Of a stretch of 64,000 nt of DNA, positions 7,353 through 55,277 are shown in pieces (positions within the stretch are counted from its first letter, which is position 1; every line of letters starts with the position of its first letter). This DNA is from Streptomyces mexicanus (GTDB lineage Bacteria > Actinomycetota > Actinomycetes > Streptomycetales > Streptomycetaceae). Where the stretch lies: positions 2,748,211 through 2,812,210 of the forward strand of contig NZ_LR732544.1 of NCBI RefSeq assembly GCF_902506575.1. The letters run 5' to 3'. Made by a program: the position numbers and the translations under genes. Below the pieces are notes generated by a model that was not told the DNA's origin, did not search any database, and was given only the letters and a program-made list of their open reading frames with translations.

Positions 7353-9221
7353 TTACTTCTTGGCCTTGCCCGATCCCGCGCTGTCATCGCTGGAGAGCAC
7401 CGCGATGAAGGCCTCCTGCGGAACCTCCACGGAACCCACCATCTTCATGCGCTTCTTGCCCTCCTTCTGCTTCTCCAGCAGCTTGCGCTTGCGGGAGATG
7501 TCACCGCCGTAGCACTTGGCGAGGACGTCCTTGCGGATGGCGCGGATGGTCTCGCGGGCGATCACGCGGGAGCCGATGGCGGCCTGGACGGGCACCTCGA
7601 AGTTCTGCCGCGGGATCAGCTCCTTGAGCTTGGCGACGAGCCGCACGCCGTACGCGTACGCCTGGTCCTTGTGGGTGATCGCCGAGAAGGCGTCCACCTT
7701 GTCGCCGTGCAGCAGGATGTCCACCTTGACCAGGGAGCTGGACTGCTCACCGGTGGGCTCGTAGTCGAGGGAGGCGTAGCCGCGGGTCTTGGACTTCAGC
7801 TGGTCGAAGAAGTCGAAGACGATCTCCGCGAGGGGGAGGGTGTAGCGGATCTCGACCCGGTCCTCGGAGAGGTAGTCCATGCCGAGCAGGGTGCCGCGCC
7901 GGGTCTGGCACAGCTCCATGATCGCGCCGATGAACTCGGTGGGCGCGAGGATCGTGGCCCGCACGACCGGCTCGTACACCTCGGCGATCTTCCCCTCGGG
8001 GAACTCGCTCGGGTTGGTGACCGTGTGCTCGGTGCCGTCCTCCATGATCACGCGGTAGACCACGTTCGGCGCGGTGGCGATCAGGTCGAGGCCGAACTCG
8101 CGCTCCAGGCGCTCGCGGATCACGTCCAGGTGCAGCAGGCCGAGGAAGCCGACGCGGAAGCCGAAGCCGAGCGCGGCGGAGGTCTCCGGCTCGTAGACCA
8201 GCGCGGCGTCGTTGAGCTGCAGCTTGTCCAGGGCCTCGCGCAGCTCGGGGTAGTCCGAGCCGTCCAGCGGATACAGGCCCGAGAAGACCATCGGCTTGGG
8301 GTCCTTGTAGCCGCCGAGCGGCTCCGTGGCGCCCTTGTTCTGGCTGGTGACGGTGTCACCGACCTTGGACTGGCGGACGTCCTTCACACCCGTGATCAGG
8401 TAGCCCACCTCGCCGACGCCGAGACCGTCGGCGGGCAGCATCTCCGGCGAGTTGGTGCCGATCTCCAGCAGCTCGTGGGTGGCGCCCGTCGACATCATCT
8501 TGATGCGCTCGCGCTTGTTGAGCTGCCCGTCGATGACCCGCACGTACGTCACGACGCCCCGGTAGGAGTCGTAGACCGAGTCGAAGATCATCGCGCGGGC
8601 GGGGGCGTCGGCCACGCCGACCGGGGCCGGGATGTCCCTGACGACCTTGTCGAGCAGCGCCTCGACGCCGAGACCGGTCTTGGCGGAGACCTTCAGCACG
8701 TCGTCCGGCTCGCAGCCGACCAGGTTCGCCAGCTCCTCGGCGAACTTCTCCGGCTGCGCGGCCGGCAGGTCGATCTTGTTGAGCACGGGGATGATCGTGA
8801 GGTCGTTCTCCATCGCCAGGTAGAGGTTGGCGAGGGTCTGCGCCTCGATGCCCTGGGCGGCGTCGACCAGGAGGATGGTCCCCTCACAGGCGGCCAGCGA
8901 CCGCGAGACCTCGTAGGTGAAGTCGACGTGCCCCGGAGTGTCGATCATGTTGAGGATGTGCGTGTTGCCGGGGTCGTGGGTGGGAGCCCACGGCAGACGC
9001 ACCGCCTGGGACTTGATCGTGATGCCGCGCTCGCGCTCGATGTCCATGCGGTCGAGGTACTGAGCGCGCATCTGCCGCTGCTCGACCACCCCGGTCAGCT
9101 GGAGCATCCGGTCGGCGAGGGTGGACTTGCCGTGGTCGATGTGCGCGATGATGCAGAAATTGCGGATCAGAGCCGGGTCGGTACGGCTCGGCTCGGGCAC
9201 ATTGTCAGTGGTCGCGGGCAC
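7353..9221 (-). CDS. lepA: Elongation factor 4 (LepA)
   Basis: A ribosome-associated GTPase that back-translocates or remodels stalled ribosomes. The G1 motif AHIDHGKST is near the N-terminus. G2/G3 follow with [12 protein letters not shown] and [16 protein letters not shown], and G4 NKIDLPAA is present. The diagnostic LepA C-terminal domain contains [33 protein letters not shown], and the C-terminal arm contains [28 protein letters not shown] at 9221 ([17 protein letters not shown]) is the usual Streptomyces start, with AGGA 6 bases upstream. The frame continues to 9281. It is divergent from rpsT, the conserved actinobacterial arrangement. Confidence 0.95.
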
Positions 9222-9310
9222 GCAGGGTCCTGTCTCTTGAGGCGCCTTATGCCTCGGGTCGGATCGATACGTAGTCTCCATGGTCCCACGTACGGACCGC
9301 GGGAGCGGGT

Positions 9311-9456: not shown

Positions 9457-9723
9457 GTGGCGAACATCAAGTCCCAGATCAAGCGGATCAAGACCAACGA
9501 GAAGGCCCGGCTGCGCAACAAGGCCGTCAAGTCCTCCCTGAAGACCGCGATCCGCAAGGCTCGCGAGGCCGCTGCCGCGGGTGACGTCGAGAAGGCCACC
9601 GAGCTGCAGCGCGTTGCCGCGCGTCAGCTGGACAAGGCCGTCTCGAAGGGCGTCATCCACAAGAACCAGGCCGCCAACAAGAAGTCGGCGCTGGCTCAGA
9701 AGGTCGCGGCGCTCAAGGGCTGA
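9457..9723 (+). CDS. rpsT: 30S ribosomal protein S20
   Basis: An 88-residue lysine/alanine-rich primary rRNA-binding protein of the small subunit. It has the invariant start [18 protein letters not shown], the central [14 protein letters not shown] and the C-terminal [14 protein letters not shown] segment, and is full length for the family. The start is GTG with GAAGG-type purines about 7 bases upstream. It stands alone between the divergent lepA and convergent holA, the standard order in Streptomyces. Confidence 0.97.
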
Positions 9724-9988: not shown

Positions 9989-10978
9989 TCAGCCGCGGCC
10001 TCGGGAACGGGCCGCGCGGGCGATCGTCACGACCGCCTTCTCCAGCGCGTACTCCGGGTCGTCGCCGCCGCCCTTGACGCCGGCGTCCGCCTCGGCGACC
10101 GCGCGCAGGGCCATGGCCACGCCGTCCGGGGACCAGCCGCGCATCTGCTGCCGGACCCGGTCGATCTTCCAGGGCGGCATGCCCAGCTCCCGCGCCAGGT
10201 CGGCGGGCCGGCCCCCGCGCGCGGACATCAGCTTGCCGATCCCCCGCACGCCCTGCGCCAGCGCGCTGGTGATCATCACGGGCGCCACGCCCGTGGCCAG
10301 CGACCAGCGCAGCGCCTCCAGGGCCTCCGCGGCCCGGCCCTCCACGGCCCGGTCGGCGACGGTGAAGCTGGAGGCCTCGGCCCGGCCGGTGTAGTAGCGG
10401 CCGACGACCTCCTCGTCGATCGTGCCCTCGACGTCGGCGACGAGCTGGGACACCGCGGAGGCCAGCTCCCGCAGGTCGCTGCCGATCGCGTCGACCAGCG
10501 CCTGGCACGCCTCGGGCGTGGCGGAGCGTCCCAGGCCGCGGAACTCGCCCCGGACGAACGCCAGCCGGTCGGCCGGTTTGGTCATCTTCGGGCAGGCCAC
10601 CTCCCGCGCCCCCGCCTTGCGCGCGGCGTCCAGCAGCCCCTTGCCCTTGGCGCCGCCCGCGTGCAGCAGCACGAGGGTGATCTCCTCGGCGGGCGCCCCG
10701 AGATACGCCTTGACGTCCTTGACGGTGTCGGCGGACAGGTCCTGCGCGTTGCGCACGACCACGACCTTGCGCTCGGCGAACAGCGAGGGGCTGGTCAGCT
10801 CGGCGAGCGTGCCGGGCTGCAACTGGTCGGGGGTCAGGTCCCGTACGTCGGTGTCGGCGTCGGCGGCCTTCGCGGCGGCCACCACCTCCTGCACGGCACG
10901 GTCGAGCAGCAGCTCCTCCTGGCCCACGGCAAGGGTCACCGGGGCGAGAGGATCGTCGTTCGCGGTCTTCCTGGGCAT
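9989..10978 (-). CDS. holA: DNA polymerase III subunit delta
   Basis: The clamp-loader delta subunit, which opens the beta clamp. The 329-residue protein has the HolA N-terminal pattern VTLAVGQEELLLDRAVQEVV, LFAERKVVVVRNAQDL, and the three-domain AAA+-like layout without a functional Walker A. The C-terminal motif MPPWKIDRVRQQMRGWSPDGVAMALRAVAEADAGVKGG is family-specific. ATG at 10978 (MPRKTANDDPLAP) is the normal start; the upstream extension to 11011 is not supported. In Streptomyces the gene upstream on this strand is usually comEC. Here it is missing because the sequence changes at an adapter-like junction 63 bp upstream. Confidence 0.92.
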   Translation of the reverse strand: MPRKTANDDPLAPVTLAVGQEELLLDRAVQEVVAAAKAADADTDVRDLTPDQLQPGTLAELTSPSLFAERKVVVVRNAQDLSADTVKDVKAYLGAPAEEITLVLLHAGGAKGKGLLDAARKAGAREVACPKMTKPADRLAFVRGEFRGLGRSATPEACQALVDAIGSDLRELASAVSQLVADVEGTIDEEVVGRYYTGRAEASSFTVADRAVEGRAAEALEALRWSLATGVAPVMITSALAQGVRGIGKLMSARGGRPADLARELGMPPWKIDRVRQQMRGWSPDGVAMALRAVAEADAGVKGGGDDPEYALEKAVVTIARAARSRGRG

Positions 10979-11041
10979 CGCGTCAAGCATCCCACGGGCC
11001 ACTGACAACACGGCCGCGACGGGGGCGGGGGTCCGGGCGTG

Positions 11042-11074
11042 TCGTCGGCCGCGTCGGTTGTGTATAAGAGACAG
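11042..11074 (+). other. Illumina Nextera/Tn5 adapter sequence embedded in the assembly
   Basis: The last 16 bases, TGTGTATAAGAGACAG, are identical to the Tn5 mosaic-end portion of Nextera adapters. Over the full 33 bases the match to the read-1 adapter, as I remember it, is 30 of 33, with mismatches at positions 9, 15 and 17. On the minus strand it encodes CLLYTTDAADD, close to a peptide commonly produced by translated adapter contamination. It is not biological and marks a false join. Confidence 0.93.
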
Positions 11075-11140
11075 GCCGCCAGCTGATCGAGCACCGGGCC
11101 CGGGCCGCGGCCTGGGCCCGGTGCTCGATCAGCTGGCGGC
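11075..11140. repeat. 66-bp fold-back palindrome adjoining the adapter
   Basis: The arms 11075-11106 and 11109-11140 are reverse complements over 32 bases with one mismatch and only 2 bases between them. The right arm is coding sequence of the small minus-strand gene. The left arm, directly attached to the adapter, is its mirror copy. This is typical of a chimeric fold-back at a library-fragment or contig end rather than of a natural hairpin. Confidence 0.85.
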
Positions 11141-11407
11141 GGACGTACTCGCGCTTGTAGCCGATGGCCTCGCAAGCCTCGGCCTGCTTGACCTCGCCGC
11201 TGTCGATCGCGGCGGCGACGGCCGCCCAGAAGTCGAACTCGGCGTCGGCCTTGCGCTGGTCGCGGGTGGCCTTCGCGGCCGCCAGGCGCTGCTGGACCTG
11301 CTGTACGCGCTGTGCTTCGGCGGCCTTCTCGGCGTCGGACTTGGGCATTTCGTCAGCTCCTTCTGGATAGGGGAGGATGGGTGCTCCTCCTGCTCCGTTC
11401 TGGAGCG

Positions 11408-11471
11408 GGTTCGGGGCCCGGGGCGGCCGGCTGACCTTGGCCGGGATGGCGGCCGCCCCGGGGCGAAGTCA
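11408..11471 (-). repeat. 64-bp direct repeat, copy 1 (terminator-like hairpin)
   Basis: Identical over 64 bases to 11746-11809. It contains the inverted repeat CCCCGGGGCGGCCG...CGGCCGCCCCGGGG, and its right end supplies the TGA stop of the gene at 11469. Each copy therefore sits exactly at the 3' end of a minus-strand gene and probably acts as a terminator or mRNA-stabilising hairpin. Confidence 0.8.
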
Positions 11472-11714
11472 GTCCTCGCGGAACGTCGCGTAGTCGCCCT
11501 TCGGGTACACGTAGTTGGTCAGTGCGCCCTCCGCGGCGACCGCAGCAGCGCCGAGACCGGCGATGCCAGCGGCGGCAACGGCGCTGTGGTGGCTCGCCAT
11601 GTCGGCTGCCAGGGAACAGACCTGAGTGGCCCGCTGAGCGAGGGCGGGGGTTTCCCCGTCCGCGCGGGTGGTCTGGTTGATGAAGGTCTCGCGCATCTTG
11701 TCTCGGAATCCCAT
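11469..11714 (-). CDS. Small hypothetical membrane-associated protein
   Basis: An 81-residue protein starting MGFRDKMRETFINQTT, with an alanine/glycine-rich hydrophobic stretch (HSAVAAAGIAGLGAAAVAAEGAL, about residues 43-65) that may be one membrane segment. ATG at 11714 has AGGACGG upstream. It lies between two copies of the 64-bp hairpin repeat, in a run of minus-strand genes leading away from the transfer block. It is not a family I recognise. Its position suggests an accessory role in plasmid transfer or maintenance. Confidence 0.6.
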   Translation of the reverse strand: MGFRDKMRETFINQTTRADGETPALAQRATQVCSLAADMASHHSAVAAAGIAGLGAAAVAAEGALTNYVYPKGDYATFRED

Positions 11715-11745
11715 GACTGCCGTCCTGTCTCTGCGAAGGAGGGGA

Positions 11746-11809
11746 GGTTCGGGGCCCGGGGCGGCCGGCTGACCTTGGCCGGGATGGCGGCCGCCCCGGG
11801 GCGAAGTCA
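11746..11809 (-). repeat. 64-bp direct repeat, copy 2 (terminator-like hairpin)
   Basis: The second exact copy of the 11408-11471 repeat. It supplies the stop codon of the gene at 11807 and the intergenic hairpin before the gene at 11714. Complete identity over 64 bases implies a recent tandem duplication or gene conversion. Confidence 0.8.
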
Positions 11810-12361
11810 CTCGCTGAGGTCGCGGTGGCCCAGCGACTCGGCGGCGACGCGGACCAGGGCGACGGTGTCGCTGAGCGCGGCCGCCTCCTCCATCTCGCCG
11901 TCCAGGGCGTACGCGCCGCGCAGGTGCACGGTCAGCTCGTGCAGTGCGGGCAGGACCTGGCTGGTCTGGAGGGCCAGCCGGATGTCGTCGTAGTTCGCGC
12001 CGTTGGTGATGTCCTCGGCGGTGTCCCGGAAGGCTGTGGCGGCCTTCCACAGGTCGTCGCCGTCGCGGGCGTCGGGGTCGATGCCGTCGGCGACGTCGTA
12101 CGCGAAGCCCTTCACCAGATGGGCCGTGCCCCACGTGGCCAGGATCAGCAGGATCGCCATGTTGTCGGTGATGTTCAGGACCGGGGCGAACTCGGTGACG
12201 TGGTTGATCATCCAGGCGAGGGCACCGGCGCCGACGACGCCGACGGCGACGGTCGAGATGTGGTCGCCCACCAGGCGCAGGACGCGGGTGGTGCAGCGCC
12301 GGGCCCGCAGGGCGCGGCCGTGGCCGTGGCCGTCGGCGGAGTTGAGGTGCATCGCGGTCAT
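11807..12361 (-). CDS. Hypothetical two-helix membrane protein
   Basis: A 184-residue protein with two hydrophobic helices (ISTVAVGVVGAGALAWMI and ITDNMAILLILATWGTAHLV, roughly residues 36-53 and 66-85). A soluble acidic C-terminal half follows, rich in DDLWKAATAFRDTAEDI. ATG at 12361 is preceded by GGAAGGAA. The frame runs back to 12472, but that extension crosses the paired palindromes at 12421-12467, which look like an operator, so the internal start is preferred. No family recognised; possibly part of the transfer/spread functions. Confidence 0.6.
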   Translation of the reverse strand: MTAMHLNSADGHGHGRALRARRCTTRVLRLVGDHISTVAVGVVGAGALAWMINHVTEFAPVLNITDNMAILLILATWGTAHLVKGFAYDVADGIDPDARDGDDLWKAATAFRDTAEDITNGANYDDIRLALQTSQVLPALHELTVHLRGAYALDGEMEEAAALSDTVALVRVAAESLGHRDLSE

Positions 12362-12420
12362 GAGCGGGGTTCCTTCCCTTCGGTGCGCGGCCCCCCGTTC
12401 GGGTGCCGCACTTCTAGGAT

Positions 12421-12467
12421 GCCTACATTTTGTAGGCCTGTCTAGAGTGTGCCTACTTTTTATAGGC
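12421..12467. promoter_or_regulatory. Paired operator-like palindromes
   Basis: Two copies of the dyad GCCTAC-N6-TAGGC: GCCTACATTTTGTAGGC at 12421-12437 and GCCTACTTTTTATAGGC at 12451-12467. They start 30 bp apart, about three helical turns, in the upstream region of the gene starting at 12361. The AT-rich centres and regular spacing suggest cooperative repressor binding. Confidence 0.6.
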
Positions 12468-12486
12468 ACCATCTTGTTTCCGCTGG

Positions 12487-12876
12487 TCAGGCGATCCGGG
12501 AGGCCGGGACGGAGGGGGCAGGGATCGTGGCGTGGGCGGCGGCCGCGAGGAGGGCGACCAGCTCGTGCGCGGCCTCGCCCGCCTCCCGCAGCGCCTCGAC
12601 CAGGTCGGCGTCGCCCAGCGCCGTGGCGCTGGTGGTCAGCGCGTCCAGGTAGACGGCGGCGTCGTAGATGTCGCCGCGCAGGTCGATCAGGCCCGGCTGG
12701 TAGGCGGGGGCGCTGGTCAGACTCGCCGCGCCGGCCAGGTGCTCCGGCATGGTCTCGTCGCGCAGCTGCTCGACCTGCCTGTCGAGCGCTGCGGCGAGTT
12801 CCTCGGTGCTCTCGTACGCCCAGGTCTTCCCCAGGATGCGGGCGGCCAGGGCGGTGAGCTTGGAGGGGACGTTCAC
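12487..12876 (-). CDS. Hypothetical helical protein
   Basis: A 129-residue, almost entirely helical, acidic protein (LTALAARILGKTWAYESTEELAAALDRQVEQLRDE...). GTG at 12876 is preceded by GAAGGAG 5 bases upstream. It sits between a convergent-looking palindromic repeat on its 5' side and the paired operator downstream. No recognisable domain. Confidence 0.6.
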   Translation of the reverse strand: MNVPSKLTALAARILGKTWAYESTEELAAALDRQVEQLRDETMPEHLAGAASLTSAPAYQPGLIDLRGDIYDAAVYLDALTTSATALGDADLVEALREAGEAAHELVALLAAAAHATIPAPSVPASRIA

Positions 12877-12924
12877 GATGGCTCCTTCGTCGTCGGGGAA
12901 TCCGGCCGGATTGCCGGGCGTTCC

Positions 12925-12977
12925 CGCCGAATCCCGAACTTCGGGACTACCGGACTTACAGAGTTCGGGATTCGGCG
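12925..12977. repeat. Dispersed palindrome family, member 1
   Basis: CGCCGAATCCCGAAC (12925-12939) and GTTCGGGATTCGGCG (12963-12977) are perfect complements around the core ACTTCGGGACTACCGGACTT. It belongs to the family of ACTCCGGGACT-type imperfect palindromes scattered through the element. Confidence 0.7.
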
Positions 12978-12993
12978 CGAGCGCCCGAGCTGG

Positions 12994-13809
12994 TTATTTG
13001 CTGGTGGTGCGGCGTTCGTCCTTGCCCTGGCGGGCCCGGTCGGCGCGGCGCTCGGCGGCCGCCAGGGCGGCCGCGGCCGGGCCGTCGCACTCGACGCAAG
13101 GGACGGAGATCCCGGGGGCGGTGATCCGGCCGGTGTCCTCGCAGACCAGGCACGTCGGCCCCTTCGCGGGGGCCTGGACGCCATAGGCCTTGCGATAGGC
13201 GGCGACCGGCGGAGTCTTCGGCGGCTTCGGCTCCGCCGGGCGCCGGCGGGCGGTCTTGACCGGCTCGACGCCTCCGGCCTGCATGGTCCAGGCCGTCCGA
13301 AGCAGGGCGGCCACCGGGCGCATGGCCTCGTTGCGTACCCGTTTGCTGACCTTCTTCTTGACCGAGCGGACCTCGCGGCGGATCTTCGCCCTCACCTTGC
13401 GCCGGCCGTACTTGGCGATCTCGACCGCGCCCTTGCGGATCTCCTGGGCATAGTCGATCGGCGGGGGAGGCTCCTCTCCGAACCCGGCCTCGATCAGCCA
13501 CAGCCAGTCGATCTCCTGCTGCCCGGCGCGGTAGCGGCAGTAGGCCATCCACTGCGAGACGTCGACGCGAGGCTCGACCCAGGTGTGTCCGACCGGGCAG
13601 GCGGCCTCCACCACTGCGTCCATGCCGGTCTTGAAGGCCAGCCGCAGGCCGGTGTCCGCCTCGCACACCGGGCAGGCGATCACGGTCGGAATCCATGCCC
13701 GGCGCCACGTGTGCTCGGGGTCCTCGACGATGTAGCGGAAGCGGCGCTCGAAGAACAGGTAGTGATCACCGTTGTCGGGGCTGAGGGCCCTCCACGGGCT
13801 GATCGGCAT
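12994..13809 (-). CDS. Hypothetical zinc-binding protein of the transfer region
   Basis: A 271-residue protein with two likely zinc sites: CPVCEADTG...CPVGHTW in the N-terminal third (residues about 46-75), and CLVCEDTGRI...VPCVEC near the C-terminus (about residues 222-241). Between them is a strongly basic segment (YGRRKVRAKIRREVRSVKKKVSKRVRNE), fitting nucleic-acid binding. ATG at 13809 follows GGAGGAGGTCC. It is the last gene before the TraB-type translocase and separated from it by a 206-bp palindromic gap. Similar proteins are common on Streptomyces plasmids; no function known to me. Confidence 0.6.
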   Translation of the reverse strand: MPISPWRALSPDNGDHYLFFERRFRYIVEDPEHTWRRAWIPTVIACPVCEADTGLRLAFKTGMDAVVEAACPVGHTWVEPRVDVSQWMAYCRYRAGQQEIDWLWLIEAGFGEEPPPPIDYAQEIRKGAVEIAKYGRRKVRAKIRREVRSVKKKVSKRVRNEAMRPVAALLRTAWTMQAGGVEPVKTARRRPAEPKPPKTPPVAAYRKAYGVQAPAKGPTCLVCEDTGRITAPGISVPCVECDGPAAAALAAAERRADRARQGKDERRTTSK

Positions 13810-14015: not shown

Positions 14016-16385
14016 TCAGGCCTCGTCGCCCTCACCGATGAGAGCCTTGAGGTCGCGCAGGCGGTAGCCCTTGACCGTCTTGGAGGCGCCCTTGGGCCGG
14101 TAGGACTCCTTGGCCCACTTCTGGCCGCGCGGGGCCAGGACCTTGTCGAGCACCAGGGCCAGGACCGCGCCCTTGGTCACCGGCTTGCCGCCCTCAGGGA
14201 CGAAGCTGTCCAAGTCCCACGAGGTCGGGTCGAACCCGTGGAGCTGGTCGAACAGCTCGTCCTCCGTCAGGCCGCTCGGGTCACCGAGGTCCCGGTAGAT
14301 CGTGCGGATCGTGCGCAGCAGGATCGGAAGCGGCTCCTGCTCGACCTCGTCGTCGTCCCAGGGGTCGCCGCCGCCGGGGTTCGGCAGCACGACGCCGGGG
14401 ACGAACGCCCTGGACTCGGCGTCCAGCTCGCACATCCCGGCCGCGGCCCGCTCGGTGGCCCGGCGGTCGGCCTCCTCGTCGCTGGTGATGCAGGCCCGGT
14501 AAGGGATCGGCTCGCAGTAGTCGCCGCCCGCCATCACGTACGCCACCGACGCGTCGTTGACGGCGTCGCCCATCGCGGGCAGCAGCCGGTCCGGCCGCCA
14601 GCCCTGGGCCATCGCGCCGCCGCCGGCGATCTGCACGATGTCGTCCTTGTCGCAGGCGCACATGACCTGGACCGGGAGTTCGGCCAGCCACATGTTCGCG
14701 CCCACCCGGTCGCGGGTGACGCCCTGGGAAGCGATCTCCAAGTCCACGTCGGACTTCTCCGAGGTGAGCTTGATCTGCTTGACCAGCTCGTCCAGGCGGA
14801 GCGGCTTCTCCTCGCCTTCCTCGGGCTCGGGGAAGGTCTCGCTCTTGGCCGCCATGACCAGGGCCGGGAATTCGTCGATGACGACGGTAATTCCGGGCCG
14901 CTCCGGGCTGGCTTCCCAGTTCAGGCCCATTCCGAGCCGGTCGAACAGCTTCGGCCGGCCCATTCCGATCGCCAGGGCCCATTCGAGAACGACCCGGGCC
15001 TCCTGCGGCGTCCGGGCGACCGCGGACATGCACTTGCGGTACGGGCCGAAGCCCGAACCGTACGATCCGAGGTCGATGCCCACGATGATGCGGTCGTTGG
15101 TCGCGGTCAGCACGTCCAGACGGGCCCGCAGCATCGTCGACTTGCCCGAGCGGGACTTGCCGATGTACGCAACGCTGGTCCGCTTGCCCGGAAGGGCCAG
15201 GGGGCGGCCGGACATGTCGGCGCCGAACTGCGCCTTGTGCAGTTCGTGAGTGGTGACCGACTTCGGCGCACGGTAGGGGAGTTCCGGCACGGCCTTCCAC
15301 GGGTCGTCGCCCGGAATACGCAGCACGCATTCGTTGCGGGCCTGCGCGGACTGCTGCAGCAGCGCCGAATTCGTGCGCACGCCCGGCAGGCACGCCTCCA
15401 GCAGGCCCAGGTTCGCCGACAGCTTCTCCGGGGTCTGGTTCTTGAGTACGACCACGGTCTCGAAGCCCCAGTTGCGCGGGCGGACCTGCAAGGAGTGGAC
15501 GGCGACGCCGATCTCCTTGGTCAGCGCCTCGTGCAGCATCGCCTCGAACGCGCGCGGCGTCATGCCCATCTCGAACCGGTCCGGCAGACCGGCCTCGGCG
15601 CGCTCCAGCTCCTCCAGCTCCTCCGGGCTCATGTCCGGCCGGCGGCCGACCCGGGCCAGGACCGCGAGGTTGACCAGCACGCCAGCGCCCAGACCGATCA
15701 TGCCGTCCATGAACACGAATCCAGCGGCGTCGATCCCGGCCATCGGCAGGTAGGCAGCGGCGGCGCGCTGGAGGAACTTGCTGCGGGCCGTGGCGGCCGC
15801 CGCGGTGGCCTGGACCAGTGCCATCGACGACTCCTGCTGCGCGATGTCGGCGGCCTTCTTCTTCGCGTCCTTCTGCAGCAGCGCGAACTGGGCCCGGCGG
15901 GCCGCCCGCTCTGCCTCCCGCGCGAGCATTTCGGCGCGGCGCTTGGCGGCATCGGCGTTCTGCCCCTCGATCCCGCGCACCCAGCGGTGGATGCGCACGC
16001 CGCCACGGATGGTGGTGGGCACGATGCCGCGCGGCGTCCGCTGCCGCGCCACCCACCGGCGGATCCGGCGCCGGGCCTGGCGCTGGACGTACGCACGGCG
16101 GGCCGTGCGGCCCTCCGGGGTGCGAAGCGCCGGGCTGATCCACGGCGCGTCACCCTCCGGGTCCTCCCCCAGCTCCCACTCCTGGGCGGTGAACACCCTC
16201 CCCTCGACCGGCGCGGGCGGCTCGGGCTTGGTCATGTCGACGCGGGCCGCCGGCGTGGGCGCGGGGGTCTCGGGCGCCGGGGTGTCGGAGACCTCAGGCG
16301 CGGTGTCGGCGAAGGGCAGTCGGATCACCTTCGCGACCGCCTCGCCGCGGCCGGTCTCCGCCGTCCGCTCGTCGGTCTCGTTCAT
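14016..16385 (-). CDS. FtsK/SpoIIIE-type conjugal DNA translocase (TraB-like)
   Basis: A 789-residue P-loop translocase. Residues 1-200 are a charged and proline-rich N-terminus. A hydrophobic segment at about 208-245 (AAAYLPMAGIDAAGFVF...GLGAGVLVNLAVL) should anchor it in the membrane. Walker A is GKSRSGKST at about 409-417 and Walker B is VVIDEF at about 501-506. The C-terminal part after about 690 has a winged-helix character like the DNA-reading domain of FtsK/TraB. In Streptomyces a single such protein moves double-stranded plasmid DNA between mycelial cells. Downstream neighbours in the operon (DUF2637 and small membrane proteins) fit intramycelial spread genes. Confidence 0.85.
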   Translation of the reverse strand: MNETDERTAETGRGEAVAKVIRLPFADTAPEVSDTPAPETPAPTPAARVDMTKPEPPAPVEGRVFTAQEWELGEDPEGDAPWISPALRTPEGRTARRAYVQRQARRRIRRWVARQRTPRGIVPTTIRGGVRIHRWVRGIEGQNADAAKRRAEMLAREAERAARRAQFALLQKDAKKKAADIAQQESSMALVQATAAAATARSKFLQRAAAAYLPMAGIDAAGFVFMDGMIGLGAGVLVNLAVLARVGRRPDMSPEELEELERAEAGLPDRFEMGMTPRAFEAMLHEALTKEIGVAVHSLQVRPRNWGFETVVVLKNQTPEKLSANLGLLEACLPGVRTNSALLQQSAQARNECVLRIPGDDPWKAVPELPYRAPKSVTTHELHKAQFGADMSGRPLALPGKRTSVAYIGKSRSGKSTMLRARLDVLTATNDRIIVGIDLGSYGSGFGPYRKCMSAVARTPQEARVVLEWALAIGMGRPKLFDRLGMGLNWEASPERPGITVVIDEFPALVMAAKSETFPEPEEGEEKPLRLDELVKQIKLTSEKSDVDLEIASQGVTRDRVGANMWLAELPVQVMCACDKDDIVQIAGGGAMAQGWRPDRLLPAMGDAVNDASVAYVMAGGDYCEPIPYRACITSDEEADRRATERAAAGMCELDAESRAFVPGVVLPNPGGGDPWDDDEVEQEPLPILLRTIRTIYRDLGDPSGLTEDELFDQLHGFDPTSWDLDSFVPEGGKPVTKGAVLALVLDKVLAPRGQKWAKESYRPKGASKTVKGYRLRDLKALIGEGDEA

Positions 16386-34387: not shown

Positions 34388-34536
34388 GGCACCCGCCCCG
34401 CGTGGCTCTGCGAGGAACCCGCCGGTTTCACCCCTGCTGCCGCCGGCACATGGACCGCGGCCGGGCCACGGCAGCTCCCTGCGAGTCAGGACAGGGCGTT
34501 GAGCGCCACCCGTCACGACCGCTACAGGGCGAACGG

Positions 34537-34667
34537 CGCCCGGCAGTGCACTTCCCCGATTCACCTCTCGCAGGTTGTGCACCTTTGCAATGGCTCGTTC
34601 CTGCGCTCCGCCTTAACGTGAGGCTCACCCACCTGGAGCGATCAAGCGAACCGCTTGAGTGCATCCA
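34537..34667 (+). promoter_or_regulatory. Conserved upstream module, copy 1
   Basis: CGCCCGGCAGTGCA at 34537, TTTGCAATGGC exactly 47 bp later at 34584, CCCACCT at 34628 and GAGTGCATCCA at 34657. The same words in the same order and nearly identical spacing occur at 57883-57997. It ends 91 bp before the giant ORF. Probably a promoter/regulatory region; the encoded frame is not a gene. The rest of the 441-bp gap before 34759 has only dispersed member 11. Confidence 0.65.
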
Positions 34668-34758
34668 TCTGCCGTTTTGCACTCGCGTTCCGGTGGGTGC
34701 GACGTGGCATCCGCCCGCCGGCGTGCCACGTGGTGAGTACGTCACACGGGGAGAGCGC

Positions 34759-37700
34759 ATGGGGGATCGGTTCGCGACGGTAGACACGGAAGCGGAGACC
34801 GCGTCCGAAACCGAATCGGCCGCCCCATCTGATCCGCTGCCTCTTCCCGACGGCGCGGAGCCGGTCGACGGCGTACCTGGCTATCACGCGCTAATCAAGG
34901 GCGGCTCGGTCACCGTCTTCAGTCCGGACGGCACCGAGATCGCCTCCGGCTCCCGTCAAGGCGGCGTCGCGGTGGGCCGGGTCGGTGACGTCCGCCTGGT
35001 GAGCGACGGGTACGGCGACAGGCGGCTGTCGTCGTTCGCGATGCTGGCCGCGCGCCACCACCGGGCGGCGACCGATCCGAGCGCCCGCGACAAGGTCTGG
35101 GTGCGGTGGGAGGAAGACGGCGTCGCCGCGGTATACGGCACCGACAAGTACGACGACGACGACCTGCGGGCGGTGAAGGCCGGGAACCTGTACTGGTCGG
35201 GGCAGCGGCAGGCGCGGGTGACCGGCCGAAGGTGGAATCCGGAGACCCGTGACCGCAACCTCGCCGCGGTGCTGCAGGCGTTCGCCCGGCAGGACCGCAA
35301 CATCGTGGTGCTCGGGCCGGGCCAGACTCCGGAGGACCTGGTCGCCTCGCCGACTGCGGCTGCGGCCGTCCCGGCGCCGCAAGCCTCGCCGGCCACGGCC
35401 GCGCCCGCTCCCCCGCCCGAGCCGGAGCCGGAGCCGGAGCCGCTGGATCTCACCGGCCTGTCGTACGAGGAACTGGTGGAGGCGGAGGACGCCGCCGCCG
35501 TGGAGCGGTCCCGGGACTACAGCACCGCGGCGGAGGCCCGGTATCGGGCACTGCGGCAGGAGCGCGGCAGGCGGCTGCTGGACCGGGTGGCGACGGCGGT
35601 GCCGGTCACCGAGATGAGCGGCGAGGAGCTCGCGGCTGAGAGCGACTGGTGGAAGGCGAACTCCTACAAGACGCCGTTCCACTCCTCGGATGAGGAGTAC
35701 CGCACGCTGGAGCGTCACTTCAGGGCGGTACGCACCGAGCGGTACGCCCGCATCGCCCGTACCATCCTGGCCGGTCCGGCGGCGGCGGACCTGGACGATG
35801 AGGCGTTGGAGCGCACCTACGAGCAGGTCGGCCGGACGTGGACGCGCCTGCCGACCGAGCACGAGCTGCACGACCAGGTGGCCGACTACCGCAAGGCCGT
35901 CCAAGAGGAACGGATCGCCCGCCGGGCACGCTCCTACAGCGAGCGGACTCCGGTGGGCGAGATGACGCTGGAAGACCTGATCGCAGAGAGCGCCGAGCTG
36001 GGGTCGAGCCTCGACGCCCGCAACGAGCAGTCCGCCTACTCCTACAGCGATGCGGTCAGGGAGGCCCGGGCCGCGCGGCTGAAGGCCGTGGAGGAGGAGT
36101 GGTTCCAGCGAGGCATGGAGCAGCACCCGGAGGCGGCCCGCGCGAAACTGGGTGGGAGCATCACCGGCCGCCGCTCGGTGCTGATCGACGGTTCGGTCCG
36201 CGCCTACGGCTACATCGAGCGCCAGGGAAAGAAGTTCCGGGCCCTGACCGACTACGACCAGCGCAGCAGGATCGGCGACTTCGACTCCGCGCCGGCCGCG
36301 ATGGCCGCCCTTGTGCAGCGCTACGACCAGGACCCGGAGACGCTGCCGCGGCGCACCTGGGGCCTGGAGCGGGAAGTGGACCTGCCGGTCAGCGCCTACG
36401 ACCCGCTGGTCTCGTGGCTGCGGCGCAGGCCTTCGAAACTCTCCCGCGAGTACGACCGGGTGCTCACCCTCCTCACCCCCTTCCAGCTGCCGACGCAGAC
36501 GAAGGTGGTGAACCCGCTCACGAACCAGGTGATGCGGGCCTACCCGTTCCACTTCGAGGAAGGGCTGCTCGGGGAGCTGGCCCGGATCGCGGAGCGGACC
36601 ACGGAGGACCTGCGCGAGCAGTCGCTGGACGAGAATTTGCCCAAGCGGGAGAGGGAGGCGGCCAAGCGGCGGATCCCGGCGATGGGTGCCGCGCTCATCG
36701 GCATCAACGCGGTGATCGAGCAGGTGCGTGCCGCCGGCGGCGACGTCGAGCGGCGCGGGGTGGACCAGTCCCGGCTGGCGGCGCAGATGGCGGCGCTGGC
36801 CGGTACCGTCAACGAGCAAGAGGAAGGCGAGGCCGATGGCGACGACAAGCCAGTACGAGACGCTGCTGCGCAGGCACTGGGAGGAGTTCCGGCCGCAGGA
36901 GCTGGCGGCGATGGAGGATCCGGACCGGCACTTCCGCAGGCTGGCGGCGCAGATGAGCGAGGCGATCGCCGCGGCGGAGGAGGACCTGGAGGAGAGCCTG
37001 GAGCCGGAGACGGGCTACCAGGCCCGGGTCGGGCAGCTGGAGCAGATCAGGGCGACGGCGCGGGAGCAGGTGCTGCGCGAGATGCTGCCGCCGCCGGAGG
37101 ACGCGGACAGCCCGGCGGCGCCGCTGAGTCCGGAAGCAGTGGAGCTGGCGGCGATCCGCAGGGAGCTGGAGAACCTGTAGCGCGGTTCCGCCCCGATCCG
37201 GCGGACCTGCCGCGCGGCCCGCTGGCTCGGGCTGAGGCGAACCTCGAAGCCATCAAGGTGCTGCGGACGTTGGAGAGCGCCCGCCGCGGCGCCACCACCG
37301 AGGAGAAGCGCATCCTGGCCCGCTGGTCGGGATGGGGCTCGGTCCCGACCGTTTTCCTCGACGAGCCGGATCCCGATGAGCCGATCTACGCACCCGGCGG
37401 CGAGTGGGAGGGCAGGTTCGAGGCGGACCATGCCCGCTGGGAGTCGTACGACCGGGTGCGCAGCGAGCTGCGGGAGCTGCTGGACCCCTTCGAGTGGCGG
37501 GCGGCGTCCCGGGCCGTGCTGTCGGCTCACTACACCCCGCAAGGCGTCGCTGAGGCGATGTGGCAGGGCCTGGCCGCGTATGGCTTCGACGGCGGGGAGG
37601 TCCTGGAGGCTGGGTGCGGGTCCGGTGCGTTCTTCGGGGTGGCCCCGGAGAACGCGCGGCTGACCGGCGTTGAGGTGGACCCCACCACCGCGGCGATCGC

Positions 37701-40700
37701 GGCGCGGATCTACCCGCACGCCAACGTGCTGGCCGAGTCGTTCGCCGACACCGACGCCCCGGTCGGCACATTCGACCTCGTGATCGGGAACGTGCCGTTC
37801 GCGCAGGCCCCGTTCGGGGAGCGCCGCTACGGCGCGGCCGGGCACTCGCTGCACAACGGCTTCATCATCAAGCAGCTCGCACTGCTGCGGCCGGGCGGCT
37901 ACATGGCCGTGATCACCTCGCGGTGGACGCTGGACGGCGAGGACACCTCCGCCCGCCGGGCCATGTCCCGCTGGGGCGACCTGGCGGCCGCGTACCGCCT
38001 GCCGGCGGGCACCTTCGGCGAGACCGCCGACACCGACGTGGTCGCCGACGTGCTGGTCTTCCGCCGCCGCGCGGAGGGCGAGGAACCGGGCGACCAGACG
38101 TGGATCGACGCACCGGAACGGGACCTGGGCGGCCACACCCTCCCGGTGAACGCCTACTTCACCCAGCACCCCGAGAACGTGCTGGGCCGCCTGACGTCCG
38201 AGACGGGGCCGTACGGGCCCCGGGTGACGGTGCAGGGCGACCCGGACGAGGCCCCCCGCCTGCTGCGCGAACGAATGGAGGCCTCCGCCGCCGCGGCGGT
38301 CGCCGACGGCCAGGGCTACGTCCCGCACGAGGACGGGCCCGACCGCGCGCCGCTGCTGCTGCAGACCGCCCGCGAGAAGCACGCGACGGACTTCACCGGC
38401 CGCCTCTACATCGACGACGACGGGCAGATCTGGCAGCACGTCAACGGCGAGGACCCGATCCGGGTCATCACCGCCGACGGCGCCAGTGGCACCGAGCAGC
38501 TGCGGATGCTGCTGTCGCTGCGCGACACCGCGAGCGAGCTGCAAGAGCTGGACCGCACCGGCAGCGACCCCGACCGTGCGCGCGAGGTCCGCAGCCAGCT
38601 CGCCCGGCTGCACACCGCCTACACCACGGCGCACGGGCCGCTGTCCCGGCCCCGGCAGACCCGGATGGCGCTGCCGACCGACGAGGCCAGGGCCGCCGCC
38701 CGCGCCGCCGGCGTCGACCTGGCCGACGACGAGCGGCTTCCCACGGGCTGGGGCTGGTTCCGCCAGGACCCGCACGCCGCCGTCGTCCTGGGCCTGGAGC
38801 ACTGGGACCGGGCGAACGACCGGCCAGTGCCCTCCGAGGTCCTCACCCGGCGGCCGGGCACCCGCCGCAGCGAGCTGGAGCCCACCGACGACCCGAAGGC
38901 TGCACTGGCGGCAGTGATGAGCGCCACCGGCGGCGTGGACCTGCCGCTGATCGCCTCCCTGCTGGGCACGACCCCCGAAGAAGCCCGGCGCCGCCTGGGC
39001 ACCGAGGTCTTCGACAACCCGGTCACCAAGAAGCTGGAGCACGCCGGCGCCTACCTGTCCGGGCCGGTCCGGGTGAAGCTCGAACAGGCCCGCGAGGCGG
39101 CCGCCACCGATCCGAAGTACGCGGTGAACGTCGCCGCGCTGGAAGCGGTGCAGCCGCCACCCAAGCGCCTGGGGCAGTTCACTGCCCAGCTCGGCGCGCA
39201 CTGGATTCCCGCCTCCCTCGTACAGGGCTTCCTGCGCGAGTACCTCGGCGACCCGACCCTTCAGGTCAGCCACAACGAGCGCTACGGCTGGTCCCTGGCC
39301 GCGGGCAAGGTGCCCGACGCAATCAACGCGCTCAAGGGCACCGAACGCCGCTCGGCAGTGCACATCGCCAAGGCCCTGCTCGGGCGGGCCTCAATGGTGG
39401 TCAACACCCTCGATGGCAACGGGGTGGACGAGGACGCCACCCGCGCGATGCGCTACAAGGCCGACGCGATGCGGTCGGCGTTCGAGGACTACTGCACCGC
39501 CAATACCGCCCGGGTGACGCTGCTCACCGACGCCTACAACCGGCAGATGAACGGGCATGTCGTCCGCAACTACGACGGTCTCGCCCCGACCCTAACCGGA
39601 CTCACGACTGAGCGGACCCCCTTCCCGTGGCAGCTCTCGGCGGCCGCGCGAATGCAGTTCGAGCGGGGCGTGGTCCTCGCTCACGAGATGGGCCTGGGCA
39701 AGACCACCACGATGGTGATTGGCTCGCAGGCCCTGAAGGCCTCCGGGCAGATCACCAAGCCCTTCGCGGTCGTCCAGCCGCACCTGGCCCGGCAGTGGCT
39801 GGACGAAGCCAAGCTGCTCTACCCCAACGCCGACATCCACCTGATCACCTCCGACGACCTCGCCGACGGCAACCGTCGCCGGGTCCTGGAGTGGCTGCGC
39901 GCCAACACCCCGGACCTGGTCATCTTCACCGAGGGCGCGTTCGGATCGATCCGGATGAGCCCCGAGCAGCAAGAGCTGTACCTCTTCCGCGAGATCGAGT
40001 CCCTGAAGGAACAGCTCAAGCGCGAGCGCGGAGTCCCGCACAACAACTTCGCGCTGATGCAGCTGGAGAGGCGCCTGACCACGGTGGAAGCCCGCATCCG
40101 GCGCAACGACGCGCCGATGCGCACCCCGGGCGAGGTGTACTGGGACGACCTCGGGTTCGACTACGCGCTCATCGACGAAGCCCACCGCTTCACCGCCGTG
40201 GGCTTCCGCTCCAAGGAGGCCGGCGGCGAGACCGCGAGCGTCCGCGCGGTGGACCTGCACCAGAAGCTCAGGTGGCACCACCAGGTGGCGGAGGCCCACG
40301 GCGGCCGCCCCACCGTCACCCTCGGCACCGGCACACCGATGGAGAATTCCATCTTTGAGCAGTATTCGGTGCTCGAACTGGCGACGCCGTGGCTGCTGGA
40401 CCAGTTCGGAGTGCACGGCCCGGACCTGTGGGCGGAGACCTTCGGGCAGAAGGTCCAGCGCATCGAGATGGCACCGGACGGCAGCGGCCTGACGGTCGTG
40501 GAGCGCTTCTCCCGGTTCGTGTCGAAGTCCACGATGAAGACGATGTGGGGGCTGGCCGCCGACACCAAGACCGGCGACGACGTCGGGATCCAGCGGCCCA
40601 AGCTCGCCGGCGGCGCCCCGGAACTCGTGCTGGTGGAACCGACCGCCGACCAACGCGCCCGGCTCCAGACCCTGGTGGCCAGGGGCCAGGCGATCCACGC

Positions 40701-43700
40701 CGGTGACGTCACCCGCGACGAGGACAACATGCTGGCCGTCTCCGGCGAGGGCCGCGCGGTCGCGCTGGACCCCCGCCTGGTGGACCCCAATGCGCCCGCG
40801 GCAAACAAGCTCGTAACTGCGGCCGACATCATTGCGAAGGGCTACCACGCCCACAAGGACCGCACCTACGCCGTCTCCAGCCGCGACGACACCCCGCACC
40901 CGGTCCCCGGCGGGCTGTTCATCGTCTTCTGCAACAGCGGCACCCCCGGCGGCAACAACAAAGGTGGCTTCGACCTCTACGCCGAACTGCGCGACCTGCT
41001 CGCCGCCCGCGGCGTGCCCCGCGACATGGTCCAGTTCGCCCAGGACCACCACACCCCCGAGAAGAAAGCCGCGATGACCGACGCCGCCAACAACGGCGGC
41101 ATCGCGGTACTCATGGGCTCCAGCGAAGTTCTCGGCACTGGCTTCAACGGCCAGAACCGGGCCTACGCCCTGATGCACCTGGATCAGGACTGGACCCCGG
41201 CCATGATGATGCAGCGCAACTACCGCGTCATCCGCACCGGCAACCAGCACGAGGAAGTGAACATCTACTTCCTGGCCACCAAGGGCAGCATGGACGCCTG
41301 GCAGGTCGGACTGCTCACCTCCAAAGCGGAGGGCCTGCGCGACATCCAACGACCGCCCGGCGAGGGCGACGACGACAACGACACCGTCGAAGAGATCGGC
41401 GAGAGCGACTGGGACTACGCCACGATGGCCGCCGAGATCGGCGGCAACCCCTACATGCGGCAGTTCATGGAGGCCAAGCTCCACCTCCAGGGCCTGGAGG
41501 CCGACCGTCGGAACGCAGCCGCCGACCGCGTCCGCCAATTGGAGCTGCTGGGCATCAAGGAAGGCGAGCTGGTCGGCACCCGGCTGGCCATCGCAGCCCG
41601 CGAAAAGGCACTGCCGAAGATCACCGAGACGATCCGCGGTGCCGCTTTCCGCATCCGTATCGGCGGACGCGAATTCGACCGGTTCGGCGAGGCCGCCCCT
41701 GTTCTGCGCCAGGCCGTCATCGAGGCTGTGCGCGCCCACCAGAGGGAGGGCCTTGGCGCGTGGAAGAAGCTGGGCACCTTTGGGGGCCTCGACTTCGCCG
41801 TTCAGCCGGAGATCGCCCACGGTAGCGGCGAGATCCGCGCGTACATCGGGTTCCCCGAGCTGCGCCACAGCGAGTCACGGTGCTCCATGGAGGACCTGGC
41901 CAAGGGGAACATCGGTGCCACCATGCTGGGCCGCCTGGCCACCGCCCTCGAAAAGGCCGAGGATCACCAGCTGATGGACCGTGAGCGCCTCCCCAGCCTG
42001 GAGAAGGAAGTGGCGGTACTGACGGCCCAGCAGGAAGCAGTGAACTACGGACCTGCCATCGAGCACGCGCGGCGGCGGGTCGAATTGCTCGACGCGGTCG
42101 TCGGCGCGATCACCGAGCGGGACAAGATCCCCGAGCTGACCGAGTCCATGCTCGACCCGAAGAAATATCCCACCGAGAGCAGCCGCAAGAAGGCCCTCCA
42201 GGAGAACGCCGAGAAGCGGGCACCGCTCCAGGCCAAGGTGGACGCGGCGGTCGCGAGCTTGGCCGCGTTCGACGCGGAGAACCCCGCTCCCGAACCCGTG
42301 GTGCTCGTCGACAGCTGGACGGAGGACAACGACACGGACGAGGCCTATGAGCAGTGGCGAGAGCGGCAACGGATCATTGTTCAGCAGAACCGGGAGGCTG
42401 GGCTGGGAGCACCGGCCCCCGCGGACAAGCCCGCCCCTGCGTCCGACGATGGCACTGCCGGGTCCGTTGACGCCGCCCCGGAGCCCGATGCTGCGGCCGC
42501 CAGGCCCACCGGCAGCTCCGACACCCGTCCCGCGGACGGGGCTCAAGCACCGCCGGAGCAAGCCCCGCCGGCAGAGGACGGCAGCAGCACCGAGGAACCC
42601 CTGCAGTCCCAGAGTCCCGAAGTCCGGGAGTCGCAGACCAGCGAGCCGCCCGGCGACGAGCCCGGTCCCGGAACGGAGGAGCAGCCCAGGCCTGGTTTCA
42701 TCACCCGGATCACGCCCCCAGCGGGCACGGCGATCGACCGCTCCTGGTGGGTGGGTGCCTACGGCCAGTGGGACACGTCCAACGTGGGACGCAAGGGCGT
42801 TCCGTCCGCCCTGATCAAGTTCGCGTCTGAGGCGGAGGCGGCGGGATGGGCCGTGGCGCTGCGCGCCGGGTCCGTCGCGACTGAGGACGGAGAATCATTG
42901 CTCGGCGTGTGGGAGTGCGAGGCGTCCGGCACGACCCACGACAACAGCCGGGGTGGGCAGTCGCTCGCCGTTCTGTCCTTGATGTGGACTCAGGCGGAAG
43001 GCGCTAAGCGCTGGACGTTCGACACAGAGCGCTCAGGGGCGGAGCTTGGCGGTCGCCTTCTGCCCGGATACGTGACGCTGACCGACTACCGGCGTGCCCT
43101 GTCTCAGGCCCGGGTGCGGCAGGTAGACCCCTCGGCAAAGGCAACGGCGGCTGCCACTCGTGAGACGAAATCAGCAGAGGTGGAATCGTCCGCCGTCGAA
43201 GACGTAACCACCCTGTACGCACCCGGCGAGCAGGTCCGCGTAACCCCCATGAACTACGACACGTGGAGCAAGACCTACGTGCCGCTGCCTGAGTTCATCG
43301 GCACCGTGATCAGCTATACCCGGAACGGCAACTACATGGTGCGCGAGCCGGAGCACGGCACCAGCAAGCACTATGACGCCCTGCGCGAACTGCACAAGCG
43401 GGACACGGACCCGGCGGACAGCGAGACACCCCCGCCGACGGCCGAACAGCGCAACACCAGCCAGCAGCCGACCGAGCCGATCCCGGAGCAAGACAGCGAC
43501 GGGTACGGGACGGCCAACCTGTACGAGGAGTTCGGTCTCGTGCCGCCGGAACGCGTCCCGAACCCGGCTCCGCAGGATGAGCCGGAGACGGACGCGGAGA
43601 GGGAGGGCGCCGACGGCGTCCCGGACGGGCAGATGACCGTGGAAGAGGCACAGACCGAAGCCGCGCCCGCCGGCCCGGAAGGCACCCCGCCCGCGCCTCC

Positions 43701-49913: not shown

Positions 49914-50833
49914 GATGGCCGCGGCCCAGTCGGGCCGCCGCGACAGGTGCCGGCGGCAACGGCAGCCGAGCCGACAGCAGGCAGGCCCCGGGGGATCCGT
50001 TTCGAGAGACTGACCCCCCGGCCTGCAGACGGGCGCTCAGCCACGACGATGCCGGCACCGCTGGCCAAGCGATGACGGGCTCAGCCACATCGCGGCAGCA
50101 GCTGCTCCCCCTGAGCCCATCCCCGACGGCAAGGTCTGCTCACGCTCACGCATCCACGACGGCGGCAGTACGGCGGCCAGCCCACCGTCCGCCCGGCAGT
50201 CGGCACACCGCACCCCAGCCAGGCACCCCTCCCCTTCCCGCCGGCCTCCCTACGCGCACAACAGCGATACCGTCGGCCGGGAGACGGCCCGCCACGTAAA
50301 CCCCGGCGAGAAGCCGCTCCCTCACGGCTGGGGCAGCTACTGCACCGCGCAGGCCTGCTACTCGGCTGGCCACTATTCCGTAACGACCGGGGAGTGCGCA
50401 CAAAGAGCGCGCAGTAAAGCAGTGACTTCGCCGGGAGCGAGGAACTGCCGCCTCGGCGCCCCCGGTTTTCCAATTCTCGGGGAATCCACCTGTTTGAGTC
50501 GATATGCCCTGCGGATACCTATTCGGCCTTCTTTTCCCGCCCCCTCACCCGCCTCCATTCACGTTCCATCTACTCTTTCGCGAGCTGTAACGTTGCTGCC
50601 CTGATCCACGGCCACACCCGGGTTGTGACCCAGCCCGCAGTGTGGAGGCAACGCCCCTCAAGCAACAGGTAGTTGGGCGTTGATGAGGTGCGGGCGTCCG
50701 CCTAACCGGGTGGTAGCATCCACGCGTCTGCGACCTTGGACCACTCGCCTCAGGCGCTGTATTGATGCCGGCCACGGAATCCCGTGCGGGACCGTCCGCC
50801 AACGGCCGCAGCCATACGCCAGGAAAGGTTTCC
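49914..50833. other. About 920-bp intergenic region
   Basis: No frame shows coding bias. The last 250 bp are lower in GC and should contain the conservon promoter. TTCTCGGGGAATCCACC near 50475 has short dyads, but no clear -35/-10 pair was identified. Confidence 0.5.
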
Positions 50834-52018: not shown

Positions 52019-52863
52019 CGACTGACGACCTGTCGTGGATGCTGCAGGACATCGTGGACAACGTGCCCAAGGCGCTGCACACTGTCCTGCTGTCCGCGGA
52101 CGGTATCCCCCGCGGGGCGAGCGACGGTATGGACCGTAGGGCCGTGGAGACGATCTCCGCTGCCATGTCGGGCATGCAGTCCCTCAGCCGCGCCGCGGCG
52201 AAGTTCGCCGGCATGGAGCCGGAAGCGACGTGGGAACAGACGATCATCGAGTTCTCTCACGGGTGGGTCTTCCTGATCGGAGCCGGTCAGGGCGCCTACT
52301 TGGCGGCCGCGGCGGAGCCTGACGTCGACATGGGCGCGATCAGCTTCCGCATGCACCGGCTCGTCGCCCGCCTCGGCACCAACCTCACCACCCCTCCCCG
52401 GGTCAAAGCTGATGCCTGGGCCGAGCAGGCTGATCGAGCGCGGGAGCGGGCAGGAGGTGGCGCCGGGGCGGGTATCGCCATCGCGGACCTGGACGCGGCC
52501 TTCGGCGACGTACGTGGCGCACGGAATGCCGTGCTGCTGCGCAGCGACGGCCTGCCCCGGGGCGCGACCACGAGTATGAGCCGCGACCTGGTGGACACCA
52601 TCTCGGCGGCGATGCAGGGCCTCCACGCGTACAGCCGCGCCACGTCGAGGTTCGCCGGCGTCCAGGACGCACGCTGGCGCCAGACCGTCATCGAGTTCTC
52701 CCACGGGTGGGTCTTCCTGGTCCCCGCAGGAGGCGGCTCCCTGCTCGCCGCAGCTGCCGAGCCGGAGACGGACATCGCCAAGTTCGCCACGCAGCTGCAC
52801 GAGGACGTCGTACCGCGCTTGAGCACTCATCTCGCAGCGAGCAAGGAGGCGAGCCGCAGGTGA
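52015..52863 (+). CDS. cvnB: Tandem roadblock/LC7 protein CvnB (two fused domains)
   Basis: A 282-residue protein made of two roadblock/LC7 domains. The first copy (residues ~5-125) reads HTVLLSADGIPRGAS...ETISAAMSGMQSLSR...TIIEFSHGWVFLI. The second (~150-270) reads NAVLLRSDGLPRGAT...DTISAAMQGLHAYSR...TVIEFSHGWVFLV. A normal CvnB has a single copy of about 140 residues, so this is an intragenic duplication. It should regulate the CvnD GTPase, and a double domain would act as a built-in dimer. It overlaps cvnA (ATGA) and cvnC (GTGA). Confidence 0.88.
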   Translation: MTTDDLSWMLQDIVDNVPKALHTVLLSADGIPRGASDGMDRRAVETISAAMSGMQSLSRAAAKFAGMEPEATWEQTIIEFSHGWVFLIGAGQGAYLAAAAEPDVDMGAISFRMHRLVARLGTNLTTPPRVKADAWAEQADRARERAGGGAGAGIAIADLDAAFGDVRGARNAVLLRSDGLPRGATTSMSRDLVDTISAAMQGLHAYSRATSRFAGVQDARWRQTVIEFSHGWVFLVPAGGGSLLAAAAEPETDIAKFATQLHEDVVPRLSTHLAASKEASRR

Positions 52864-53807: not shown

Positions 53808-53820
53808 GAGCTCACCCCTC

Positions 53821-55182: not shown

Positions 55183-55277
55183 CGAAGGCAACTGCCTTGT
55201 TGAATGGTCATCTTGTATGTACGCCGCCATGCAAGGGTATGCATGGCGGCTGGTGACCAGATCATGAAAGGGCCGTC

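Follow-up and report, generated by a model that had tools for sequence, protein, structure and literature searches.

Does this Streptomyces chromosome carry a plasmid-like element integrated beside holA, or were chromosome and plasmid placed side by side during assembly? The window, i.e. the whole stretch of 64,000 nucleotides analysed here (C17:2748211-2812210), lies on contig C17, which accounts for 7.16 Mb of a 7.93-Mb, 159-contig assembly scored at 98.9% completeness and 0.3% contamination; in the stretches that were read, C17 is interrupted by 101-base N gaps. Unless a contig is named, coordinates are those of the window, and the same numbering is continued beyond its right edge. On the left the window shows the conserved chromosomal genes lepA (elongation factor 4; 7353-9281, minus strand; TIGR01393 at 963.8 bits and PF06421), rpsT (ribosomal protein S20; ORF at 9457-9723, plus strand; PF01649 at C17:2757670-2757915, i.e. 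9460-9705) and holA (DNA polymerase III delta; 9989-11011, minus strand; TIGR01128 at 185.5 bits for a cut-off of 80). The last of these, matched in 39 of the 41 genus genomes searched with its own counted, is the last intact chromosomal gene and is followed by its upstream spacer (11012-11041), where the alignments of relatives reach about 11006-11019. After an adapter-like stretch and a fold-back, the DNA is that of a plasmid from 11108 to 64000 and on to ~ 71080 (C17:2819290) outside the window, which makes a piece of ~ 60 kb. The first-pass annotation had claimed such a switch in gene content at this point, and the change from lepA-rpsT-holA to plasmid DNA at the adapter and fold-back bears it out. 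A gap-free contig piece of 76 kb spans holA, the plasmid DNA and the leuS side. An Rfam scan of the window at gathering thresholds gave no match and a tRNA scan of the window gave no tRNA gene.

The 33 nt at 11042-11074 (plus strand) read TCGTCGGCCGCGTCGGTTGTGTATAAGAGACAG and are identical at 30 of 33 positions to the Nextera/Tn5 read-1 oligo TCGTCGGCAGCGTCAGATGTGTATAAGAGACAG, which appears as Tn5ME-A in PMC4248319; the likeness previously claimed for a 33-base stretch is hence confirmed against that oligo. The feature itself is real from 11042 onward, its proposed start at 11041 being one base early. At the insert edge of the remnant the mosaic end is matched at 17 of 19 positions and its final 16 nt, at 11059-11074, are exact, as had been stated before. 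When the 19-nt mosaic end was searched with up to 3 mismatches, one match was obtained in the window and none in 100 shuffles. Furthermore, the oligo tail, that is the 17 nt preceding the exact 16-mer, agrees with the read-1 adapter at 14 of 17 positions, a level found 7 times, with this site counted, when both strands of 13 Streptomyces stretches (607,584 positions) were scored. Three substitutions are present in the remnant, and other copies in the assembly also have a few. A P5/i5 tail or index sought upstream of 11042 gave a score of 6 versus a shuffle mean of 6.1 and none was found; an index and P5 or P7 beyond the oligo are not obligatory, as the read or the join may stop earlier.

The mosaic end was derived from Tn5 ends, and this descent favours reading the 16 bases as the end of a natural Tn5/IS50-like transposon with no adapter involved. 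Against it, the 16-mer is directly preceded by the synthetic 5' part of the read-1 oligo, the assembly contains P7, the read-2 oligo and index-like bases at other places, and no transposase family was matched among the neighbouring ORFs (10983-13809) with Pfam and NCBIfam. It was the synthetic tail that led us to reject a natural transposon end, whose probability we consider practically nil.

The remnant at 11042 has company in the assembly. The 16-nt mosaic end, with at most one mismatch, was matched 19 times, 18 in C17 and once in C81. Eighteen of these sites were scored by script and show either the read-1 oligo at 26-31 of 33 positions (15 sites) or the read-2 oligo at 29-34 of 34 (3 sites), while the C81 site, the nineteenth, shows read 1 at 30/33 as counted by hand. 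At four read-1 sites (L004, L006, L008 and L018) the part beyond the mosaic end agrees poorly, at 11-12 of 17 by subtraction; in the table of adapter surroundings, the L019 row duplicates the L018 site. At C17:4020232-4020297, the whole P7 end is followed by TTCTGCCT and a complete read-2 oligo (34/34). Bases resembling GTAAGGAG precede several read-1 copies and are exact in L016, and we take both octamers to be Nextera indices. An N gap lies 96-392 nt away at 10 of the 18 C17 sites, and no N run is found within the ~ 3-kb stretch around the 8 others, the 11042 site included. Untrimmed Nextera (Tn5) adapter in draft assemblies shows the same features, namely the read-1 oligo of 33 nt, mosaic end included, beside genomic sequence; some other copies in this assembly also have P5- or P7-like tails and index-like bases. 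The difference is one of position, since the copy at 11042 is found inside a scaffold, bridging two replicons, instead of at a contig end.

Among 61 genomes of the genus, 53 are without a match to the mosaic end, this one has 19 and seven others have 1-28. The reversed pattern used as control gave a single match in each of 6 of the 61 genomes and none in this assembly. One of the seven, G012, a single-contig assembly of 9.0 Mb, shows 28 matches with at most one mismatch, 3 of them exact, for one match of the reversed control, and is probably another finished-looking assembly in which adapters were kept. The others are G008, G017, G032, G043, G048 and G056. Matches located at most 65 bases from a contig start amount to 2/2 in G008, 1/1 in G032, 1/1 in G048, 3/4 in G017 and 2/6 in G056, and these positions are as untrimmed adapters would give them. 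At the adapter site L009 (C17:2888342), which among the other adapter sites is the only one compared with G009 for flank distance, the flanks are 0.7 kb apart in C17 and 18.8 kb apart in G009; this site is possibly another false join, and a real indel could also explain the distance.

Directly after the adapter comes a 66-bp fold-back at 11075-11140, near-perfect as the first reading had it, with 33-nt arms that are 97% complementary and not separated by any spacer. It is the strongest hairpin of the 76-kb gap-free piece (score 28, the runner-up being 21). Its right arm (11108-11140) is genuine plasmid sequence and lies within a small gene on the minus strand, of which the 5' part at 11108-11348 is retained and which is interrupted by the fold-back, and its left arm (11075-11107) repeats the end of the plasmid contig in inverted orientation. 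Strength and absence of a spacer would suit a real plasmid hairpin, for instance an origin, a transfer site or a terminator, with the adapter alone being foreign. This reading is scarcely credible, as the leftward alignments of five plasmid relatives end at 11097, inside the palindrome, and in two annotated relatives the gene continues straight through. Indeed, the counterparts OG542_RS40385 and GR129_RS35035 are each 282 bp long, and in both circular plasmids the gene is intact and followed by more plasmid genes.

Fold-backs of this sort also occur directly at other contig ends of the assembly, which further argues against a real plasmid hairpin. They were found at C64 1-98, C3 1-70 and C24 1-87, that is at 3 of 134 contig ends versus none of 268 internal stretches; this count covers 67 contigs of 1-20 kb out of the 159, shorter contigs and those cut at 20 kb having been dropped. 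Fold-backs are also seen at the edges of two N gaps, at coordinate 76083 and at C17:1722041, the latter read by eye. The hairpin at 11075-11140 is read as one of the same kind as those at contig ends, buried by the join. A long hairpin was present within ~ 200 nt of 1 of the 17 other adapter sites tested (L010) and absent at 16, hence adapter and fold-back are usually separate artefacts. Artificial palindromes have been described in DNA that was amplified (PMC6218980). The fold-back chimeras treated there are likewise inverted copies of adjacent sequence with no counterpart in relatives, but the setting of that paper is whole-genome amplification and long reads.

We then turn to the continuation of the chromosome. 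The 8 nt at 11030-11037, GGTCCGGG, are also the first 8 nt of contig C64 reversed, and the true chromosomal sequence probably ends near 11037, where we infer the exact end point to lie. C64 (4490 bp) carries the assembly's only match to comEC (PF03772). The holA flank and C64 adjoin in 13 of the 13 holA loci of relatives, with matches -6 to 331 bp apart; five of these are 4-kb loci and show the holA-side part of C64 only, and one, L044, has the terminal small gene inverted. For all 8 relatives compared in this way, placing C64 after the flank gives alignment scores of 151-249, versus 113-135 for the arrangement as assembled. Synteny with the single-contig genome G009 holds up to 11009 and is found again from 71148, and by this comparison ~ 60 kb of foreign DNA replaces ~ 7.4 kb of chromosome. 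The degV model (PF02645) gave no match in the assembly, the same model missing 8 of 14 control genomes; recovery of the chromosomal stretch from C64 to leuS may hence be incomplete.

On the other side of the adapter, the foreign DNA is assigned to a family of circular, mobilizable Streptomyces plasmids of 85-91 kb. From 11097 to ~ 49480 the window is largely colinear with NZ_CP107912.1 (85,287 bp) and NZ_CP047145.1 (91,452 bp), both circular and mobilizable, with 67-97% identity per listed piece, pieces shorter than 150 nt being omitted from the BLAST rows as printed. The backbone of the NZ_CP107912.1 family is present, namely an FtsK-like gene, a ParA region, a giant ORF and a mob/T4SS block, the mob and T4SS genes being located here on contig C103, where the T4SS coupling protein matches PF12696 and PF02534. 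The FtsK/SpoIIIE-like protein (14016-16385, minus strand; phrog_12531, E 1.3e-38) shares 84.6% and 80.6% identity over its length with its counterparts in the two circular plasmids, and its gene is also found on three draft contigs of 88-91 kb from other Streptomyces. The giant ORF (34402-49851, plus strand, 5149 aa) has a counterpart in each of the two plasmids, 15.6 kb and 14.5 kb long, and its weak SNF2, ResIII and methyltransferase matches are confined to the first half. The two plasmids differ from this one in the region from 50 to 64 kb of the window and on to 71 kb, where only short, weak matches are obtained, the cas8e-like gene included. Pfam and NCBIfam gave no match for the first-tried plasmid ORFs, some of which are perhaps in wrong frames, and PHROGs matched 3 of 10 proteins.

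Other features of the plasmid piece were observed. A direct repeat of ~ 80 bp, 93% identical (11408-11490 and 11746-11824), flanks a small plasmid ORF region and is perhaps regulatory; a related copy of its first 57 bases occurs elsewhere in the Ru62 contig. The segment at 50805-57281 shows 76% identity to a portion of a Streptomyces plasmid of 678 kb, where cytochrome P450, roadblock and ATP/GTP-binding proteins are annotated. The ORF at 61043-62140 combines a serine resolvase N-terminal domain with a phage-type zinc finger.

This plasmid continues past both joins. To the left of 11097 it resumes on contig C118 after 75-78 missing bp, as measured against three relatives. At the right end, C17:2818607-2819278 (70397-71068) matches positions 2-203 of the Cse1/Cas8e profile and the end of C103 matches its positions 212-449; the two contigs share an exact overlap of 14 nt (71067-71080 and C103 23436-23449). 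The cas8e/cse1 gene is thus seen in two parts, 70379-71080 (L066:6379-7080) and C103:22452-23444 (L106:19003-19995). No Cas model matched the next three ORFs scanned on the C103 side (345, 184 and 621 aa) or, on the side of C17, the ORF of 250 aa, and the plasmid cas8e may stand alone, without Cascade partners. The right end (~ 71080), which lies beyond the window and was missed by the first-pass annotation, is also joined to the chromosome, the join splitting cas8e.

A fourth plasmid piece, C17:1715792-1719542, is misplaced ~ 1 Mb away and has one side flush with an N gap. A dispersed repeat of ~ 290 bp that belongs to the plasmid family is found at C103:1-299 and C17:1715792-1716077, at the ends of two plasmid pieces, and probably broke the assembly there. 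When ordered on the relatives, the pieces make a circle of the 60-kb piece, C103 reversed, the C17:1715792-1719542 piece reversed and C118, then back to the first; one of its joins is the 14-nt overlap and the other three have 1.5-1.6 kb, 64-68 bp and 75-78 bp missing. The summed length is about 94 kb. Most likely the plasmid exists as a circular replicon of its own, ~ 95 kb in size and present in at least 4 pieces in the assembly.

Since each side continues elsewhere in the assembly, the chromosome on C64 and the plasmid on C118, the join between holA and the plasmid is false, and with the 19 mosaic-end matches this upholds the earlier claim of a false joining of chromosome and element. On the strength of the assembled sequences we hold it nearly certain that this join is an assembly artefact. 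The 60-kb insert having false joins at both its ends, the further claim that an integration at holA must not be read from this context is valid as well.

The proposed course of events is as follows. The genome was sequenced from a Nextera (Tn5 tagmentation) library with incompletely trimmed adapters. A read starting from the left end of the plasmid contig would have passed into a fold-back self-copy (11108-11140 as 11075-11107) and then into the read-1 adapter, from 11074 down to 11042. Indeed, the minus strand passes from the plasmid gene through the fold-back copy into the read-1 adapter complement, as would be given by a short-insert read overrunning its insert into untrimmed adapter. The plasmid contig would have been lengthened by this adapter-bearing tail, and the tail would then have been fused, during contig joining or gap closing, to the chromosomal contig whose end lies just upstream of holA. 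At its other end, in the plasmid cas8e (~ 71080), the piece was likewise fused to the chromosome on the leuS side. In the cell, the comEC region (C64) comes after holA. The adapter, the fold-back, the displacement of comEC and of the plasmid continuations on both sides and the many further adapter remnants are observed; we infer the order of the read events, the software step and the free circle.

Some observations count against an artefact, among them the missing degV match and the rarity of a long hairpin near the other adapter sites, both given above. Another is that the left and right joins of the plasmid piece fall on opposite sides of one chromosomal gap, the holA side and the leuS side, which would not be expected from two independent random misjoins; a gap-filling or reference-guided step could join both ends to one gap. 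Furthermore, the right join (~ 71080) shows no mosaic-end match and no long fold-back. A 14-nt palindrome, read by eye, is centred on this join.

A plasmid truly integrated between holA and the leuS region, with the few dozen bases of the junction as the sole artefact, would account for a contig piece in which holA, the plasmid and the leuS side follow one another without gaps, with chromosomal synteny resuming on the leuS side. Furthermore, the relative NZ_CP107912.1 has a site-specific integrase and a recombinase, and the piece itself contains the resolvase-domain ORF. We nevertheless find such an integration very unlikely, given that C64 abuts the holA flank and that the plasmid runs past both joins onto C118 and C103, one of them in the middle of cas8e. 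An integrated circle is opened by one cut, but here ~ 34 kb of matching plasmid sequence lie outside both joins. The element is not found whole at one site, about one third of the matching plasmid sequence being on C103, C118 and elsewhere on C17. Integration at holA was rejected on the grounds that the chromosomal and plasmid continuations were both found on other contigs. One could also imagine that a subset of the culture holds a recombined plasmid derivative, with the 60-kb piece between holA and leuS replacing comEC-degV, beside the normal chromosome and the free plasmid, the adapter having been captured at one edge; we judge this most improbable.

Under the preferred reading, that of two false joins, the junction of adapter and fold-back is no biological feature. 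The chromosome-like C17 (7.16 Mb) carries 18 of the 19 mosaic-end matches together with plasmid DNA at two places. A search with the 16-mer of the mosaic end, allowing at most one mismatch, is a cheap flag for such cases and rings in 8 of the 61 genus genomes, this one included. From the scaffold as it stands, gene-context methods would misread a plasmid-like element as integrated beside a conserved replication gene, comEC as displaced and cas8e as truncated. Statements on an integration beside holA or on a truncated cas8e in this genome are hence to be withdrawn.
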